Part shown: piece by piece, positions 4,572-21,774 of the stretch
Layout: every line of letters begins with the position of its first letter
Numbering within the stretch: position 1 is the first letter of the stretch
From: a virus
DNA: 21,797 bases
Direction: 5' to 3' (one strand)
Virus record (IMG/VR): IMGVR_UViG_3300036770_000834
Span: 1 to 21,797 of that record
Translations under genes and position numbers: made by a program
Notes under the pieces: generated by a model
The model's input: only the letters and a program-made list of their open reading frames with translations
What the model was told of the DNA's origin: nothing
Database searches by the model: none

Positions 4572-5619
4572 TCTTTATCTTTTTTTCTAATATTTGTATT
4601 TTTATGGGATTAGATTCTACGCCATCTAGAATTGATTTTAGAGTAAATAATTTTCCATATTTAACAACGGCATCATTTACGTCTTTGCAATCCTTTCTCC
4701 ACACAGGAAAACTTACATTCCATCCATATTCTAATGCACGCTTTATAGTAACTTCACCTGGCCAAACTTCACGCCCTTGCTTATTATAATGTTTATCAAA
4801 GTCAGGAATTACTATAACATTTTTACCAAGAGATTCTATTATATCTGCCTGCTGCTCTGATATATCATTAGTTTGAGTACTAACACCATCAATACTCATA
4901 GCATCAAATGTTCCTTCGACCACTAAAACAATTTTGTTATCTTTATGTTGATTATCAAGGTTGAAAACAAAATGTCCTGGATGATCGCTATGATACTTTT
5001 TGATCTTTGTTGTTGTATCAGTAAGTCTAGCCGTATATCCTACAATCTGATTCTTGTAGTAGAAAGGAACAATTACTCTATGATTTAATTTATTCTCGAT
5101 ATTAGGTGACCAGAAAAAATTATATTTACTCAAGTCTATGCATCTATCATGTATATACTGAACTGCGTTTGCTAGATCATCAAATACATTTTCACCACTA
5201 GCGATTACAGCATCAATAATGTTTATGGCATTGGATGGTAGTTGTCGTGACTCAAATGAAAATTCTTCTTGAACAGCAATAGGATTTTCTATTAGTATGG
5301 TATTTTTTAATCTAAGACTTTCGAGTACCAATCGCTGTATTTCATTTTCGTTGGCACCCATCCATTTAAGTAATTTTCTGTATTTGAAACTTAAGGTTCT
5401 ACCAGGTACATAACTGGTTTTAAATCCACAGTTGAAACAGTGATAACTTATTTTGCCATCTGTTTCTACTAGTACGCCGCCGCGACTTCTGGTGTCCGAA
5501 TTATGACCATTGTTATGGCAGCAGGGCGCATTGAAACTTAACCATCCACTTTGTGATGATTTTTGTTTTCTCGGCAATAAAGATATGGTATAGTCGCTGA
5601 TGATAGTATTAAGCATCAC
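4564..5619 (-). CDS. 61: DNA primase (T4 gp61-like)
   Basis: A 351-residue primase that would make RNA primers for lagging-strand synthesis with the overlapping helicase gene product. The N-terminal zinc-ribbon is visible: C33, C34, H35 and H39 around PCCHNNGH, then C61 and C64 in YHCFNCGF. The TOPRIM catalytic core follows, with the Glu/Asp of VVEGTFDAM (E235, D239) and the metal-binding PDFD (D273, D275). Both blocks are where the T4 gp61 family has them, and the length is close to T4 gp61 (342 aa). The frame opens with ATGATG; either ATG could be used. It is separated from the tail block by 53 bases containing a TATACT box on the minus strand, so it may have its own promoter. Family assignment is secure. 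Confidence 0.93.
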   Translation of the reverse strand: MMLNTIISDYTISLLPRKQKSSQSGWLSFNAPCCHNNGHNSDTRSRGGVLVETDGKISYHCFNCGFKTSYVPGRTLSFKYRKLLKWMGANENEIQRLVLESLRLKNTILIENPIAVQEEFSFESRQLPSNAINIIDAVIASGENVFDDLANAVQYIHDRCIDLSKYNFFWSPNIENKLNHRVIVPFYYKNQIVGYTARLTDTTTKIKKYHSDHPGHFVFNLDNQHKDNKIVLVVEGTFDAMSIDGVSTQTNDISEQQADIIESLGKNVIVIPDFDKHYNKQGREVWPGEVTIKRALEYGWNVSFPVWRKDCKDVNDAVVKYGKLFTLKSILDGVESNPIKIQILEKKIKNE

Positions 5620-10912: not shown

Positions 10913-11656
10913 TTATAGTCTATTCATAGACAGTAACATATTATCAATAAAATTCAAGTTTTTAAATCTATTGACAAAAATATTGACATCTAACACAGAA
11001 ATTATTGCACCAGCATTAGCAGAGTTCAATGATCCAGTTTCCCACATTACTGCAACATATTCACTGTCAGTAAATGGCGTAGTCATGGGTGTTCCATTGC
11101 CAACAGATGTAAATGTGCCAGGTCTTGCAAAAGTAACTTTATTATCATTATTTGATAGCAAGAATTTAGATTCTACCGTTACTTCGATACTAGAACCACT
11201 ATAATCAGTGCTGCCACGAACAACACTGCCGCCACCGATATTAGTTATAAAATCATCTATTGAACTATCACGTGCTCCAAAATTGCTATTTTCTCCTAAT
11301 ATGAACATTGCTCCACCATATTGTATATATTGATACAATCTACTAGTTGGATCAGATGGATTAGTAGTATATGGACTAGCATAACCTATATCCCACAGAT
11401 GAGCATAATCATACAGATTATATGTTAGTAAATCTTCGTAACTAGTAACCAGAATACTATCATAGCCCAGTGCTGTTTCACGTGCTGCAATTACTGGATA
11501 TATATCAGTTGCTGGATTTATTGCACCAGATGCATAATAATTAGTGTCACCACCTGGACCGTTTGTCAGTGAATCATAAAAAATAATTGCTGTTTTTTTG
11601 TATCCACGATCTGGTTGCAAAAATCCAAATCCTAATTTATTAACACCATAAAACAT
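10913..11656 (-). CDS. Class I glutamine-amidotransferase-fold-like protein in tail block
   Basis: A 247-residue protein if the ATG at 11656 is used. A TTG directly upstream would add one residue; the ATG overlaps the collagen-like gene's TGA (TGATG). It begins with a beta-strand (KTAIIFYDSL) and continues with ETALGYDSILVTSYEDLL and YDYAHLWDIGY. A later strand-turn is YIQYGGAMFILGEN followed by FITNIGGGSV. This alternating pattern resembles the flavodoxin-like fold of ThuA/GATase-type domains. No Cys nucleophile is present at the expected turn (GEN instead of a Cys), so enzymatic activity is doubtful. It sits between the collagen-like fibre and the 815-aa fibre and is probably virion-associated, perhaps a glycan-binding or structural domain. 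Confidence 0.5.
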   Translation of the reverse strand: MFYGVNKLGFGFLQPDRGYKKTAIIFYDSLTNGPGGDTNYYASGAINPATDIYPVIAARETALGYDSILVTSYEDLLTYNLYDYAHLWDIGYASPYTTNPSDPTSRLYQYIQYGGAMFILGENSNFGARDSSIDDFITNIGGGSVVRGSTDYSGSSIEVTVESKFLLSNNDNKVTFARPGTFTSVGNGTPMTTPFTDSEYVAVMWETGSLNSANAGAIISVLDVNIFVNRFKNLNFIDNMLLSMNRL

Positions 11657-12675
11657 CAAGCATATCCCGTAGTTAGTGCAACATAGTATCTGGATCCATC
11701 GTAAAACATATTAAGCATATCAATACTATTTGCATTAAAACTAAGAACTTTGTAGTTGCTGGCAAATTTGTAGTTAGAATTAGCAGTTAATGTTCTACCA
11801 CCCACTTCATCTTGCGTGAAAATAAGTGTCAAACTTTCTCCTATGTCCATATTTTCTGGTACTTGTAAGTCTATATTTCCAGTCAATGTGGCTGTTTGAA
11901 CTGTTGCTAGAGTTCTGTTAGGTGTGAAACTTCCGCTGATGTTGCCTAAATCATATATTGACGATTGAACGCCTTCAAACGTGACCGTGACTGCATCGCC
12001 TATGTTTGAAGCAATTATTCCATTGCCAGCGAAGTTCAAACTCTGTAGATTAGTAGTTAGTACAACACTATCATTTTCTACTGTTATACTTGGACCTTGT
12101 GGTCCAGCGGGACCCTGCGGTCCTTGTGGACCAGGCACAGTGCTTTCTGGGCCTTGTGGACCTTGTGGGCCTTGTGGTCCTTCTATTCCCAGAGGTCCCT
12201 GTTGACCTTGAGGGCCTTGTGGTCCTTGTGGTCCTGTATTACCTATTGATCCTTGTGGTCCTTGTGGGCCTTGTGGTCCAGTGTCGCCTTGTATTCCCTG
12301 ATCGCCTTGTGGTCCTTGTGGACCTTGTGTTCCCTGAGGACCCTGTGGTCCCTGTATGCCAATCGGACCCTGTGCTCCTTGTGGCCCTTGTGGGCCTTGT
12401 GAACCCTGCGGCCCCTCTATACCAATTGGCCCAATTGGGCCACGTGGTCCCTGTACTCCCTGTGGTCCCTGCGGTCCTTGTGGTCCTTGTAGTCCAGTCG
12501 GACCTTGTATACCTTGCGGACCAATTACACCTTGAGGACCCTGCATTCCTCTGACTCCAGCCGGTCCTTGTGGACCTTGAGGACCCTGTATGCCTTGCGG
12601 TCCCTGTGGACCTTGTGGACCTCTAGGTCCCTGTGGACCTTGCGGTCCTGCTGGTATGTCTAACAAACTGTCCAT
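11656..12675 (-). CDS. Collagen-like tail fibre protein
   Basis: A 339-residue protein dominated by Gly-X-Y triplets, mostly GPQ, from G10 to about residue 196, with one interruption at residues 177-181 (ESTVP). This should form a collagen triple helix of about 60 triplets. The C-terminal about 140 residues are globular ([20 protein letters not shown], then [16 protein letters not shown]) and probably act as trimerisation and tip domain, as in other phage collagen-like fibres. AAGGA lies before the ATG. The gene is first after the 178-aa protein and overlaps the next gene by TGATG. The repetitive DNA creates a long open frame on the opposite strand, which is not a gene. Triplet number is likely variable between relatives. 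Confidence 0.9.
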
Positions 12676-16296: not shown

Positions 16297-17753
16297 TGTT
16301 GCCAGTTTACCTTTTCTATTGTGTAATTATACTCTACTTCCTTGTAGAATTCTTTTCTTTTAGTTAAATGGCGTTTTGAAAATTTACATGAACTGTTAAC
16401 ATCCCAAATTTCAACATGGTCCTTGTCGTGTGCTTTTCTCAGACCACGGCCAATTGACTGTATGGTTCTAACAAACGATTTCCCTGGCTCTAACAATACC
16501 ACATTGAAAATTCTAGGAATGTTGATTCCAACCGCGGCTACCTGATAAGTTGCAACGATGATTTTGCCATCTGAATCCGATATACTTTCGTATTCTGTTT
16601 GACGATCTTTGTTTTTAGTATTACCTGACACAAATACAGAATTAGGCAATATTGCTACTAACGATTCGCCCGCTGATATGCGATCAACTAAGACTAGCGT
16701 ATTGCCAGATTTGGATATTTTAGATACCAGACTAGCAATATATGTTATACGATCACCATCTTCTAACAAATATTTTAGTTCATTTTGGTAATTTGAAAAT
16801 TCACGATGATCTTGTAGTTGAAGTATGTTTACATGACAATTTGAAAGTACACCTTTTTCCTGTAACTCAACTGCGGTAAGTTTATTGATAACTGGTCCGA
16901 TACAAACAGTTAGCGCAGTAGAGGCAAATTCTTCTTTGGGAATAGTACCAGTCAACCCCCATCGAATTGGAATATGTGCCATTACTGTTGATAACATTGA
17001 TTTCAGTTGATCGGCCTTTGCGCCATGTACCTCATCACAAATAACACATACAACATCTTCAAGAAAGTCATGTATGGTATAAGTTGCTTCGCCATTCTGG
17101 GTGTTTTTAATTATTGCTAGTACACTCTGCCATGTGCATATTGTATGTTTTTTGCCTAATTCTTTGCGATCTCCATAGTATACACCTACGTCAAGTCCTA
17201 AGTTGATATAATCCGCTTCAGTTTGTGTTACCAGCGATTTGTTAGGAACTATGACAATAGAACGACCATGATGCTCTACTGATGAACTTAATGCAGCAGT
17301 AATCAATGTTTTGCCTGCACCGGTTGGTGCTACTTGAATACATTGTGGATTTTTTAGAAAGTTGTTAACTATCTCAACTTGATAATCACGTAATTCAATT
17401 GGTTTGCCTGCTAAACTATGTTTTTCTGGCCATGAAATATGTGAAAATGAATTTTCAGTTATGGGTTTAAATTCAAACGAAGTAGAATAACTGCGTACAT
17501 CATCAATCTCTATGTCATAACCAGCAGCATCAATTATTGGAATAATTTCTGGCAATAAGTTGATATAGGATGCTCCTCCTACACTGAAGTAGGATACTTT
17601 TCCACTCCATCTACCTAAACGCACACTGGGTAGATATCTAGCGCCAGGTATTTCGTATTCAAACTTTTTGGTTAACGCTCTGCGTTCTGCTAATTCTAGA
17701 CCATCTATTTTTAGATTGACTTCATCCTTGATGATTATTTTACATGTTTTCAT
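16293..17753 (-). CDS. uvsW: UvsW-type DNA helicase (superfamily 2)
   Basis: A 486-residue SF2 helicase that would remodel stalled forks and R-loops and resolve recombination branches, and in T4 helps switch from origin- to recombination-driven replication. The N-terminal about 90 residues (including SVRLGRWSGKVSYFSVGG, then EIIPIIDAAGYDIEI) match the T4 UvsW substrate-binding domain (T4 has RYGNWDGRIRLL). Motor motifs: Walker A APTGAGKT (142-149), DEVH box (240-243), LTGT (267-270), motif V QVAAVGINIP (404-413) and motif VI QSIGRGLRK (432-440). Length is close to T4 UvsW (503 aa). Its first codons overlap the end of the HARP-like gene by 14 bases, and its end overlaps the 168-aa gene by ATGA. 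Family assignment is secure. Confidence 0.93.
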   Translation of the reverse strand: MKTCKIIIKDEVNLKIDGLELAERRALTKKFEYEIPGARYLPSVRLGRWSGKVSYFSVGGASYINLLPEIIPIIDAAGYDIEIDDVRSYSTSFEFKPITENSFSHISWPEKHSLAGKPIELRDYQVEIVNNFLKNPQCIQVAPTGAGKTLITAALSSSVEHHGRSIVIVPNKSLVTQTEADYINLGLDVGVYYGDRKELGKKHTICTWQSVLAIIKNTQNGEATYTIHDFLEDVVCVICDEVHGAKADQLKSMLSTVMAHIPIRWGLTGTIPKEEFASTALTVCIGPVINKLTAVELQEKGVLSNCHVNILQLQDHREFSNYQNELKYLLEDGDRITYIASLVSKISKSGNTLVLVDRISAGESLVAILPNSVFVSGNTKNKDRQTEYESISDSDGKIIVATYQVAAVGINIPRIFNVVLLEPGKSFVRTIQSIGRGLRKAHDKDHVEIWDVNSSCKFSKRHLTKRKEFYKEVEYNYTIEKVNWQQ

Positions 17754-18783
17754 GTTCTACGATTATGATTTTTTCTGCTGTTTTTAGCATTGTACTTTTC
17801 TTTATTCCGATCAACACAGGCGACTGTGATATAAACAGTTTAACAGGCACGGAGGAATCAGGCCAAGATTTATCCAAATGAATCAAATTTTCATGCTTAT
17901 ATCTGCTCAGAGTTTTATATGAACTAAGATATGCATATACTGGAGTTCTACCAAATTCTTCAGCATAGTCCATCATCTGTTTAATATCAAAGTCTTTTAA
18001 TTTTATAGTTGTTGTTTTTTGTAAAACAAAATCAGGCAAATCAAGACTTGATTTCTTGATTAAATCTTCATGAACAGTATAACCCAGTGTGGTAGATAAA
18101 TCAATTAATTTAGGTAAATTGACATAATCTAAATCTCCAACATTGGCTTTTATGTAAAGGAGCAAAGATGGATGAGCATTAGTGATCTGAAGTCCATCAG
18201 CGGTATCAACTAATTCTATTTTATATGGTTGATTTTCAATTTCAATTATTGACGCATATAAATCTTGTATCTCATCTGAATAAGCGAATTCATTATCCTT
18301 GCAGTAAGCCTTGATATATGTCAAACTATATTCAGTTAGTGGTAATACCCATGTTTTATTTTGATAATTGAATCTAGCATAAACGTCATTGTCGCTACTC
18401 TTGTTTAATGATCTAAATTTAGATATCAGATCCTGATTGTATGGAAACTTAATACTAAATTTGTTATTTTCATGATCAATTTCTACAATTTTAGTTTGAT
18501 CTACCTTTCTTATAGGCAGTCTGAATTGATCTAGAGTGTCTGGTACATTTATGCCAAACTTCTCTAGTTGTTTTTTATATTTTTTGATTAGTGAAACTGC
18601 CAAGTCTGCCTGTTTTTGCGAAAATGCCAAATTTCTAAACAGTATCTGTTCGCAAAAACTATCTACTATAGCAACATCATAACGTGCTAAATTTATATTT
18701 TTTTTATTCAGAATACTGTTAGTGAAATTTTTGTATCCGCCTATATATTCAATATAGTCTTCAACATGATTAAAACTTTTCAT
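17740..18783 (-). CDS. Protein with HARP-like segment, coupled to uvsW
   Basis: A 347-residue protein with no helicase motifs. Residues 54-73 (FSQKQADLAVSLIKKYKKQL) form a helix of a type seen in replication accessory proteins. Residues about 108-161 (FSIKFPYNQDLISKFRSLN, then NYQNKTWVLPLTEYSLTYIK) resemble the HARP domain of annealing helicases such as SMARCAL1, which reads FPY...LI...K.W.LP. The final third is mixed alpha/beta ending in AEKIIIVEHENM. It overlaps the uvsW start by 14 bases and the heme oxygenase stop by ATGA. The picture is of a substrate-recognition partner supplied in trans to the UvsW motor. The HARP match is short, so this is moderate inference. Confidence 0.5.
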   Translation of the reverse strand: MKSFNHVEDYIEYIGGYKNFTNSILNKKNINLARYDVAIVDSFCEQILFRNLAFSQKQADLAVSLIKKYKKQLEKFGINVPDTLDQFRLPIRKVDQTKIVEIDHENNKFSIKFPYNQDLISKFRSLNKSSDNDVYARFNYQNKTWVLPLTEYSLTYIKAYCKDNEFAYSDEIQDLYASIIEIENQPYKIELVDTADGLQITNAHPSLLLYIKANVGDLDYVNLPKLIDLSTTLGYTVHEDLIKKSSLDLPDFVLQKTTTIKLKDFDIKQMMDYAEEFGRTPVYAYLSSYKTLSRYKHENLIHLDKSWPDSSVPVKLFISQSPVLIGIKKSTMLKTAEKIIIVEHENM

Positions 18784-19313
18784 TGACTTAAATCCACATC
18801 ATATGATTTTAAAATTTTGTGTGCCCAATCAAATGCAATATTAGTTTCATCTACCAAATCAATATCTAATAGATTTTCTAATTTTTCAATGATCTTTGGT
18901 CTATTCTTGAAATCCAAACTGGGACTATCTAACGACAGAACTTTCTTAATCATCTGCCCACCATACATGTCGCCCATATGCCAGGTGTATAGGTGCGCTA
19001 GGATTCGTCTGTCACCTACATTGATTGACTTTAAATACTTAAAGTATTCAATGGCTTCATCACGATACTTTAAATCACTGTATAGATGCTTGCATTCTAA
19101 ATACAATAAAAAAGATCTATTGATTTCAATAAAATCATTAGTGTACTTGGACGCTGATGCGGTATCTTCTATGATTTTGTAAAATAACGATTTTTGATAA
19201 ACAAAATCATACCACAAATTCATTGGCAACTTTTTTTCAAAAATTGCCCGCATGAATTTTGTTGATTCAACTAAATTATGACTGTCTCTGGAATATTCTC
19301 TTAGTATACTCAT
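18780..19313 (-). CDS. Heme oxygenase
   Basis: A 177-residue heme oxygenase, which would open heme to biliverdin with release of iron and CO, using a reductase from the host. H12 in SRDSHNLVESTKFM is placed like the proximal heme ligand (mammalian H25). GDMYGGQ (114-120) with the preceding YTWHM is the distal-helix signature (mammalian GDLSGGQ). The surrounding LARILAHLYTW-type helix and FVYQKSLFYKII match the all-helical fold. It is shorter than bacterial enzymes (about 210-240 aa), like phage versions. It lies between the Cys-rich protein (7-base gap) and the HARP-like gene (ATGA overlap). Bilin production or iron release during infection are both possible; no bilin reductase is encoded nearby. 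Confidence 0.82.
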   Translation of the reverse strand: MSILREYSRDSHNLVESTKFMRAIFEKKLPMNLWYDFVYQKSLFYKIIEDTASASKYTNDFIEINRSFLLYLECKHLYSDLKYRDEAIEYFKYLKSINVGDRRILAHLYTWHMGDMYGGQMIKKVLSLDSPSLDFKNRPKIIEKLENLLDIDLVDETNIAFDWAHKILKSYDVDLSQ

Positions 19314-19320
19314 ATGTTAT

Positions 19321-19656
19321 TTACTTTAAGTTTGTTTGTTCAAGTTTATTTGCTGCCTCTTCTAACAAGTCGGCAATACGATCAGCCTTGCCCTCTTCTA
19401 CACTTTTCCTGCCTGGGATTTGTCTACGAATCTCTGCACGTTTACGCAAACGATAAATCAGTGGTTGGCTTTCGGTTGGAAGTCGTTGTAAACAGTTTAC
19501 ACCATCGCATTCAGTTGGGCTTAAACATTTGATACATTTGACTCCTGGACATTCTTCTTTGGTATTATACACAGTTTCTACTGTATTACAAACCTTACAA
19601 TAAGTTAGATCAGGCATACCAAATGTTGTTTCGTCATTACGCCATTGATGTTTCAT
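19321..19656 (-). CDS. Cys-rich, probably zinc-binding protein
   Basis: A 111-residue protein with seven Cys and a His near the N-terminus (H3, C20xxC23, C36, C41xxC44, C50, C55), suggesting one or two zinc-binding sites, followed by a basic segment (YRLRKRAEIRRQ) and a helical C-terminus (RIADLLEEAANKLEQ). The ATG at 19656 is chosen over an upstream in-frame GTG because it forms the ATGA overlap with the alanine-rich gene. Its ribosome site is the repeated GGA-TGTGT-ATG junction that also precedes the paralogous copies. The function is not recognised; nucleic-acid binding is a guess. Confidence 0.6.
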   Translation of the reverse strand: MKHQWRNDETTFGMPDLTYCKVCNTVETVYNTKEECPGVKCIKCLSPTECDGVNCLQRLPTESQPLIYRLRKRAEIRRQIPGRKSVEEGKADRIADLLEEAANKLEQTNLK

Positions 19657-20066
19657 ACACATTCCAATTCACGAATTCGTTCAAACGCAATCACTGCTGG
19701 AATCAATAGAATTGCTGCTGGTTCTTCACTGAGAATAGCCCAAACACGCAGGTGGTCGACAGGCATGGCTAGATATTTACTGGCGTCGTCATATGCGATT
19801 AGGGCGATTATCGCATTCCACGCCGCATCCTGAGCCGCAATCCAAGCCGCACCCTGAGCCGCAAGTCTAGCATTCAAAGCCGCATCCCAAGCCTCATTAT
19901 GAGGCGTCTCCCTAGCCGCATTCATAGCCGCATCTGTGGCCTCATACCAATCCAAATCATTGTGAGCCGCATCTCTAGCCGCATCCCAAATTTCAGGATG
20001 TGACTTTACAGACTCAAGTACCCGATCAATATGATGGGCATTTGGCAAATGACTCCATGCGTTCAT
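19653..20066 (-). CDS. Alanine-rich repeat protein, copy 3
   Basis: A 137-residue protein with three parts shared with two upstream paralogues. An N-terminal cap (WSHLPNAHHIDRVLES, KSHPEIW) is followed by a variable Ala-rich helical repeat of AAxx tetrads, here the least regular, with insertions such as NDLDWYEATDA. It ends in a C-terminal cap (LIAYDDASKYLAMPVDHLRV, AILLIPAVIAFERI, ELECV). It starts at ATG overlapping copy 2's stop by ATGA. Function unknown; no catalytic residues, signal or membrane segment. The family's role is not known to me. Confidence 0.75.
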   Translation of the reverse strand: MNAWSHLPNAHHIDRVLESVKSHPEIWDAARDAAHNDLDWYEATDAAMNAARETPHNEAWDAALNARLAAQGAAWIAAQDAAWNAIIALIAYDDASKYLAMPVDHLRVWAILSEEPAAILLIPAVIAFERIRELECV

Positions 20067-20461
20067 ACACACTCCAATTCATTGATTCGTTCAAAAGCAA
20101 TCACTGCTGGTAGTAATAAAATCGCTGCCGGGTCTTCACTAAGAATAGCCCAAACACGTAGTTGATCGACAGGCATGTCTAGATATTTACTGGCATCATC
20201 AAATGCAATTAGTGCTGCTGTCGCATCCATAGTCGCAAGCGTAGCCGCAACCCAAGCTACATTCCAAGCCGTAACCCAAGCTACATTCCAAGCCGTAACC
20301 CTAGACGCATTCAAAGCCGCAAACCTAGACGCATCCAAAGCCGCACCATGAGCCGCAAGTCTAGCATTCAAAGCCGCATCCCAAATTTCAGGATGCGACT
20401 TCGCTGACTCAAGTACCCGATCAATATGATGGGCATTAGGTAAATGACTCCATGCGTTCAT
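20063..20461 (-). CDS. Alanine-rich repeat protein, copy 2
   Basis: A 132-residue paralogue with caps near-identical to copies 1 and 3. The repeat region (about residues 29-85) has in-phase 12-base units giving Ala-rich tetrads, including ALNASRVTAWNVAWVTAWNV. The ATG lies in ATGA with the copy 1 stop, behind GGAG. A 33-base stretch including GCCGCAAGTCTAGCATTC (plus strand, from 20352) is identical to one in copy 3, pointing to recent duplication or gene conversion. Function unknown. Confidence 0.75.
   Translation of the reverse strand: MNAWSHLPNAHHIDRVLESAKSHPEIWDAALNARLAAHGAALDASRFAALNASRVTAWNVAWVTAWNVAWVAATLATMDATAALIAFDDASKYLDMPVDQLRVWAILSEDPAAILLLPAVIAFERINELECV
20220..20387 (+). repeat. 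12-bp tandem coding repeat (copy 2)
   Basis: Degenerate units starting with GCCGCA, GCTACA, GCCGTA or GACGCA recur every 12 bases from 20220 to about 20363, then once at a 9-base interval. They encode the Ala-rich tetrads of copy 2 on the minus strand. Confidence 0.8.
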
Positions 20462-20835
20462 ACACACTCCAATTCACGAATTTTTTCAAAAGCAACCACT
20501 GCTGGAATCAATAGAATTGCTGCTGGGTCTTCACTAAGAATAGCCCAAACACGTAGTTGGTCGACAGGCATGTCTAGATATTTACTGGCGTCGTCATATG
20601 CGATTAGTGCTGCTATCGCACCCCAAGCCGCATTCCAAGCCGCATACCTAGCCGCACCCAAAGCCGCACCCAAAGCCGCATACTTAGCCTCATCCAAAGC
20701 CGCATATCTAGCCGAAAGCCGAGCCGCACCCAAAGCCGCATACCTAGCCGAAAGCCTAGCCTCATTCCAAGCCGCACCCCAAATTTCAGGATGTGACTTT
20801 ACAGACTCAAGTACCCTATCAATATGATTGGGCAT
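20458..20835 (-). CDS. Alanine-rich repeat protein, copy 1, N-terminus frameshifted
   Basis: A paralogue with the most regular repeat: fourteen 12-base units in phase (20615-20782) encode tetrads such as AALG and ARYA. The ancestral start is probably ATG at 20860, which overlaps the RNA ligase stop as ATGA. However, one extra base in the run at about 20828-20830, relative to copies 2 and 3, shifts the frame and ends it at a TGA after 13 codons. The remaining frame can start at the internal ATG at 20835 (MPNHIDRVLES), giving 125 residues that retain the repeat and C-terminal cap. This may be a natural mutation with re-initiation, or a sequencing error. Confidence 0.65.
   Translation of the reverse strand: MPNHIDRVLESVKSHPEIWGAAWNEARLSARYAALGAARLSARYAALDEAKYAALGAALGAARYAAWNAAWGAIAALIAYDDASKYLDMPVDQLRVWAILSEDPAAILLIPAVVAFEKIRELECV
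20615..20782 (+). repeat. 12-bp tandem coding repeat (copy 1)
   Basis: Units beginning GCCGCA (or GCCTCA, GCCGAA, ATCGCA) follow each other every 12 bases without a phase break, fourteen units from 20615. On the minus strand each unit gives four residues of the AAxx type. The exact period allows unit gain and loss without frameshift. Confidence 0.85.
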
Positions 20836-20856
20836 TTGGTAAATGACTCCATGCGT

Positions 20857-21774
20857 TCATACAGCATTCTCCATATAGTTCCTAACCCACTCCAACCGTT
20901 GTTGTTCGGTCATATCAGTATATTCTACAATGTTTTCACGAATGTAGTCAATTAACCCATGATATTCCTCATCAATGCTACGCTTGATGTCATTCTTCAA
21001 ATCTACCAACTTATCGGTCCGCGGATTACGAGCCACCCACTTGTTTACCAAGTAATACGGACTCTTGATCTTGGTAGACCGACCATCATCGGTGTATACC
21101 ACATAACCTTCGTGACGACACTCCTTAGTCAACTCTTGAATTCTACCCATATTAGAAATCACACATTCAGGCGTATAACAACCCAACTCCTTCGCTAGAT
21201 CACGCAGAGTAAAACTATCATACTGTACCCGAGAACCCCACACATTTTCCCGAAAACCCAACAAATACATGCCAGGACGTTCAGGAACAATGTGTGGATC
21301 ATCTACATGGCAACATTCAAACATAAAGGTCACGCCCTGCATATCGCTGCGGCTGAAAACCAAACACCAATCTTCGTAATTATATTGTTCACGGATCATT
21401 TTACGAACCATGTCAACATAATCACTATCCAATGAACCGGTAGTGCTGATCAACAAATCACCACGATACCAGGTAACGGACGCCATAAAGCCATTGACCT
21501 TACGAAACGCAGTTACCTTGGTATCAACATCGATCGAAGGCGCACGGCTTTCGATACCAAAATTGTAGATTTTCTTGAAGGGATAAGCAACCAGATTGAA
21601 ATCCTGATCAACGACCGCACCACGACATTCTTCCAAGAAGTTATCCCAAGAATTCTTGTAAAAGACCTTCTTGCTGTACTTCAGCACATACAAGCCAGGA
21701 TATACAGCAGATTCTCGCATCTTCACAGACTGAGAATTCTGCCGTACATATTCACGCAATTCATCACGAAACAT
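20857..21774 (-). CDS. RNA ligase (T4 Rnl1-like)
   Basis: A 305-residue ATP-dependent RNA ligase, expected to seal 5'-phosphate and 3'-OH ends, as T4 RnlA does for tRNAs cut by host defence. Motif I is KVNG (K92, the AMP-carrying Lys; Asn where most ligases have Asp). ECRGAVVD (49-56) is the upstream Rnl1-type element. Motif III is FMFECC (150-155), motif IV EGYVV (222-226), and motif V KIKSPYYL (235-242). It is shorter than T4 Rnl1 (374 aa), so the C-terminal tRNA-specificity domain appears reduced. Hand-sampled lines suggest about 40-45% GC, against roughly 30-35% in many other genes here. Starts at ATG with a weak upstream ribosome site; the 23 bases beyond it at the window edge hold nothing else visible. 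Its stop overlaps the ancestral start of alanine-rich copy 1. Confidence 0.85.
   Translation of the reverse strand: MFRDELREYVRQNSQSVKMRESAVYPGLYVLKYSKKVFYKNSWDNFLEECRGAVVDQDFNLVAYPFKKIYNFGIESRAPSIDVDTKVTAFRKVNGFMASVTWYRGDLLISTTGSLDSDYVDMVRKMIREQYNYEDWCLVFSRSDMQGVTFMFECCHVDDPHIVPERPGMYLLGFRENVWGSRVQYDSFTLRDLAKELGCYTPECVISNMGRIQELTKECRHEGYVVYTDDGRSTKIKSPYYLVNKWVARNPRTDKLVDLKNDIKRSIDEEYHGLIDYIRENIVEYTDMTEQQRLEWVRNYMENAV

Follow-up and report, generated by a model that had tools for sequence, protein, structure and literature searches.

The window analysed here is the whole IMG/VR virus record IMGVR_UViG_3300036770_000834 (21,797 bases) and contains three paralogous genes of approximately 400 bp, which are arranged head to tail on the minus strand between an RNA ligase gene and a small cysteine-rich gene (Table 1). 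Judged by the tail-fibre attachment-type RNA ligase and a UvsW-like helicase, the virus is a T4-like or jumbo myovirus. The ligase gene is the upstream anchor of the array and shares an ATGA overlap with copy 1. A first-pass annotation had described the locus as a tandem triplication, which is confirmed by the coordinates and by a TRF analysis of the array (period 395 bp, 2.2 copies, score 1239). It had further stated that the copies share their caps and differ in the repeat region; indeed, protein identity between the window copies is 95-100% in the N-cap and 88-90% in the C-cap, but 53-56% in the repeat core, which is about the background for unrelated cores in the AAxx-array family. The start of each copy overlaps the stop of the preceding gene as ATGA, and GGAG is found 8-11 nt 5' of the ATG in all three copies, within the end of the preceding gene; the ATG of the cysteine-rich gene has GGAA, not GGAG, at the corresponding upstream place. 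Since GGAG and ATGA are part of each unit, the duplication unit includes the ribosome site and the junction, as had been proposed.

Table 1. Genes and repeat cores of the array and its flanks (window positions).
Feature	Position	Strand	Remarks
T4 RnlA-type RNA ligase / tail-fibre attachment catalyst	20857..21774	-	phrog_562, 1e-52; TIGR02308, 6e-9 (under its cut-off)
Copy 1 of AAxx-repeat gene (module A)	20458..20860	-	frameshifted; ATG 20860, stop 20458
AAxx core of copy 1	20611..20778	-	56 aa; 12-nt units GCG GCT NNG NNT
Copy 2 (module C)	20063..20461	-	132 aa, intact
AAxx core of copy 2	20216..20380	-	55 aa
Copy 3 (module B)	19653..20066	-	137 aa, intact; AF2 model made
AAxx core of copy 3	19806..19985	-	60 aa
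Cys-rich small gene	19321..19656	-	no Pfam, NCBIfam or PADLOC match

Two features had been missed in the first-pass annotation, namely an extra base in copy 1 and a frozen third codon position in the cores. Copy 1 carries a single extra A near 20829, and due to this 1-base frameshift only 13 codons are read from its normal start. Reading can resume in frame from an overlapping ATG at 20835; the resulting product lacks the WSHLPNA motif, the region of which comprises the most conserved residues of the N-cap. Going by its reading frame, copy 1 looks damaged, and a full-length orthologue is present in the related contig L001 (L001:4834-5223). Antisense genes were considered as well and rejected: copy 1 is covered by a plus-strand frame of 127 aa, copies 2 and 3 only by shorter ones, and GCN-rich codons produce frames of this kind mechanically.

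An assembly artefact was rejected as an explanation, because the longest exact word common to two copies is 39 nt and thus shorter than a short read; moreover, the arrays of relatives are independent. Over 4,163 nt, a separate record, L042, which starts inside copy 3, matches the window at 99.98% identity. The gene family was assembled from three scans of viral contigs, complemented by a count per record, and the array comprises between 1 and approximately 25 copies in relatives. Five copies are found in L001, two in L004, four in L006, five to six in L209 (one of them interrupted) and seven, in dispersed positions, in G013. In the 103-kb contig G001 (L219, L222, L224), approximately 25 matches were counted, the majority of them grouped in three tandem clusters; many of its cores are without the regular AAxx pattern. 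A tblastn search for named relatives covered 50,697 phage records as well as plasmid records and had no match, and a GTDB genome scan found no relatives in species-level bacterial genomes.

In 20 contigs, the window included, the array comes immediately after the RNA ligase. Empty sites are found in L057-L060 and L065-L066, in which the ligase abuts, with no array in between, a gene homologous to the C-terminal half of the cysteine-rich gene; this half (RLRKRAEIRRQ...DRIADLLEEAA) lies directly 3' of the ligase in array-free relatives. In L237 (position 3697 onward), one copy of the repeat protein forms a single in-frame fusion with the same RLRKRAEIRRQ...DRIADLLEEAA protein that follows the arrays elsewhere, hinting at a possible functional link between the two. 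At its C-terminal end, the RNA ligase has ~25 residues that hardly differ between the window (20857-20935) and L010 (L010:5920-6004), although the ligases are 59% identical overall, which suggests that the end of the ligase may have been exchanged together with the array.

Comparison of closely related records reveals how these arrays change. L006 and L012 are two records of near-identical phages, with four and two copies, respectively: L012 lacks exactly copies 1 and 2 of L006, and the two records are identical at 5296/5296 bases upstream, at 879/881 bases in the shared copies and, in the alignment that extends downstream from copy 3 (5,578 bases), at 99.96%. Likewise, L040 has two copies and L048 has one, with 94/94 identical upstream bases and two mismatches in 3071 downstream bases. 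L006 and L007 differ by exactly one 12-base unit inside copy 2; L007 also switches to a copy-4-type C-cap, which could be an assembly-end effect, because its contig ends within the array. When the cores of the window are paired with those of L001, copy 1 corresponds to L001-1 (87%), copy 2 to L001-4 (93%) and copy 3 to L001-2 (71%). The caps do not track this pairing, and the order of the modules is A-C-B in the window and A-B-X-C-D in L001. Such comparisons of genomes show that whole genes as well as single 12-base units have been added, deleted and reshuffled, and this evolution of the array is well supported. Homologous recombination in the caps and cores explains the changes. The earlier suggestion of an expansion with diversification between the ligase and the cysteine-rich gene is therefore upheld by the range of copy numbers, the missing-copy alleles and the core shuffling, and both copy number and repeat length, whose comparison in related phages had been recommended, were found to vary.

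Since orthologous cores of the window and L001 are 71-93% alike, compared to 53-56% within one genome, diversity is kept between the copies. This bears on the idea that the extra copies simply boost the amount of one protein, as described for tifA in T4, a segment of which is amplified under toxIN, or for T6, in which SegB drives the amplification. T4-type phages are known to amplify anti-defence genes in tandem via recombination between short homologies (PMC9391042, PMC13096335), and the segmental amplifications of T4 dmd-tifA and T6 SegB/tRNA share with the array that they are tandem, recombination-driven and linked to counter-defence (PMC9391042, PMC13096335). However, these amplifications are recent, dose-raising repeats with near-identical copies, whereas the copies of the window have diversified in their cores and share no exact word longer than 39 nt. 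Because the copies are diverse and not alike, an explanation by gene dosage is considered unlikely.

The core unit reads GCG GCT NNG NNT (Ala-Ala-x-x) across 30 distinct cores. Positions 7, 8, 10 and 11 of the unit vary; the third base of a codon mostly stays the same, also in units with a different residue. Fourfold sites carry G or T in 761/858 cases in the cores, compared to 457/1080 in the caps (p 4e-106), and arginine is encoded by AGG or CGG in 125/134 core codons, but in only 13/220 codons elsewhere in the window. Third positions account for 19% of the differences between neighbouring units and for 54% of those between C-caps. For pooled window-L001 pairs, dN/dS is 0.07 in the N-cap, 0.23 in the C-cap and 1.4 in the core, a contrast that is due to the low dS of the core, as its dN is not above that of the C-cap. 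The dS of the core is 0.06 and thus about five times lower than that of the caps (0.3-0.4) and the ligase (0.28). On these ratios, the caps are under strong purifying selection. The selection for diversity postulated in the first-pass annotation is backed by the codon-position patterns; the dN/dS comparison of caps and repeats, which had also been recommended, yielded a contrast, but not through an elevated dN in the cores.

The fixed third bases could also mean that it is the nucleic acid, DNA or RNA, with the sequence GCGGCTNNGNNT that is conserved, for instance for recombination or translation, and that the variation of the residues is incidental. The excess of G and T at fourfold sites and the low dS of the cores are in line with such a nucleic-acid constraint; however, the frozen bases vary by lineage, being C-rich in L052/L054, A/G in L009 and C,A,G,C in phage Tweety. 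A single, universally conserved DNA motif is weakened as a candidate by these differences, and the constraint is given only a small probability. From the lineage-specific third bases, it is inferred instead that the cores have probably been re-expanded repeatedly from a local seed unit, combined with selection on the residues.

Alternatively, the array might be a tolerated by-product of neutral or selfish expansion, in which the G+C-rich 12-base repeat and the near-identical caps act as unstable recombination substrates. Repeats promote unequal recombination, the frame of copy 1 is disrupted, copy number differs between near-identical genomes and array-free relatives exist, all of which would be expected from neutral expansion. 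This explanation is at odds with the strong purification of the caps and with the retention of open frames in almost all copies of many lineages. Furthermore, the cores differ at amino-acid-changing positions, whereas drift would fill third positions first. A neutral origin is therefore rated as rather improbable, albeit as the most serious of the rivals considered here.

The closest known counterpart is gp54 of mycobacteriophage Tweety, which was described in 2007. Its gene contains a 12-bp unit with invariant positions 1-6, 9 and 12 and variable positions 7, 8, 10 and 11, and it has a G+C-rich core and ends that are >95% identical (PMC2884959). Genes of this type have 48, 26 and 15 repeats in three mycobacteriophages and are absent from a fourth (PMC2884959); a re-count in the fetched Tweety gene likewise gave 48 units. 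According to two reviews, gp54 acts in counter-defence against the prophage systems of Phrann and MichelleMyBell, and escape mutants alter its repeat number (PMC9262239, PMC8549241). Tweety gp54, Che8 gp57 and PMC gp51 (phrog_3416) share with the window family the 12-bp Ala-Ala-x-x unit with six invariant first bases. The fixed third codon bases 9 and 12, the G+C-rich core between conserved ends, the varying repeat number (in the window family, the 12-nt indel between L006 and L007) and the absence of the gene from some close relatives are also common to gp54 and the window family. In contrast, the single Tweety gene contains ~48 regular units, whereas the window family comprises between 1 and ~25 genes, each built of ~14 units that are less regular; unlike gp54, the window family duplicates and shuffles whole genes. 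Neither cap HMMs nor blastp detected homology between the caps and gp54. As the caps are non-homologous, the link to gp54 is an analogy drawn from the repeat architecture: the array of the window may work like gp54, without being a member of the gp54 family. The earlier guess of an anti-defence role has thereby gained an experimental precedent of the same repeat design, to the extent that the reviews describe it, and it stands as an analogy.

The family phrog_8332 matches 18/18 aligned copies, and in the window copies the match is confined to the repeat; phrog_3416 matches only 5/18 copies, with the matching stretch on the repeat where shown. Phage DUF7666 (PF24703) proteins and phrog_8332 / phrog_18326 share the AAxx tract, partly with the same 12-mer, but the DUF7666 domain itself is absent, PF24703 having no match in the window copies or the aligned relatives; a literature search on DUF7666 found nothing. 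Since further phage proteins, among them some with DUF7666, contain the 12-mer as well, the AAxx tract might be a general module that serves different purposes. PADLOC reported nothing for the copies, and a sequence search of the PDB returned chance-level matches only. Structure prediction had been recommended to see whether the repeat is a helical rod or a solenoid; AlphaFold2 predicted an all-helical structure for copy 3 from 29 family sequences (m190c7dfce328; pLDDT 84.5, pTM 0.81), with several helices of 11-21 residues and one short helix; the model of copy 2 (18 sequences) is one long helix with a pTM of 0.28 and is not reliable. Searches by fold found nothing significant, with no PDB match at E<=0.001. 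A virion or adhesion protein, in which the cores form a rod or decoration and their variation alters the host range, might be suspected, as the adjacent ligase family is also known as a tail-fibre attachment catalyst and the Tweety authors likened the gp54 repeat to one that varies in a gene of a Bordetella phage (PMC2884959). However, no structural-protein family matched any copy, and the neighbours of the array gene are short genes that are gained and lost between relatives rather than a tail module, which makes a virion role very improbable. The sequence, family and fold searches likewise gave nothing in favour of the surface role that the first-pass annotation had named beside anti-defence.

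The reading that is cautiously preferred here is an expandable array of differently tuned counter-defence proteins similar to Tweety gp54. Each protein consists of a constant N-cap and C-cap, which flank a varied, predicted helical Ala-Ala-x-x core, and the gain, loss and reshuffling of whole genes and 12-base units fit homologous recombination within and between the copies. By analogy with gp54, the core might set the geometry or the contact surface between the two caps and might thereby tune the protein to the defence complex, encoded by a host or a prophage, that it neutralises. Tuning of counter-defence by the core is an evenly balanced call, taken from the one experimental precedent, Tweety gp54. 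This phage lineage would in this way carry several tuned versions at once beside its RNA ligase gene and turn them over rapidly, instead of retuning one gene. It is tempting to speculate further, albeit with less confidence, that some T4-like phages maintain up to ~25 cap-core-cap proteins as a repertoire that recombines, in which every protein is tuned to another defence complex, with new counter-defence specificities arising from shuffling and slippage; such a repertoire might be a phage counterpart of antigenic-variation gene families. PRDM9 zinc-finger arrays, among others, also combine repeat turnover with variation at a few residues of otherwise uniform units, a likeness for which no homology is claimed; nothing in the cores points to a code for the recognition of nucleic acids. 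Compared to the gp54 precedent, the different caps, the occurrence in T4-like phages, the multi-gene arrays with natural copy-number alleles and the shuffling of cores are new. The role of the AAxx tetrapeptide repeat in phages is known only from the single Tweety case; if the arrays are counter-defence repertoires, they would be places to seek new defence systems and would allow repeat length and repeat sequence to be compared directly as determinants of specificity.

Some further observations concern the surroundings of these genes. L006 contains a second, unrelated tandem set of three alanine-rich genes (L006:10777-11794) with a different shared N-terminus, MNDKLxEMWxALxxHEPAPSYAEAW; the one copy that was scanned had no PHROG or Pfam match. 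In L005 and L003, several adjacent small genes around the single copy have the pattern MNERIKEL...CxxxV...FGV(E) and represent another duplicated small-gene family. Within the window, all on the minus strand, a 347-aa protein (17740-18783) has a weak PADLOC match to GajB (0.016), which is probably due to chance, and a heme-oxygenase-like protein (18780-19313; Pfam PF01126, 8.5e-13) is encoded two genes downstream of the array. A collagen-like protein with GPQGPQ repeats (11656-12675) is probably a fibre.
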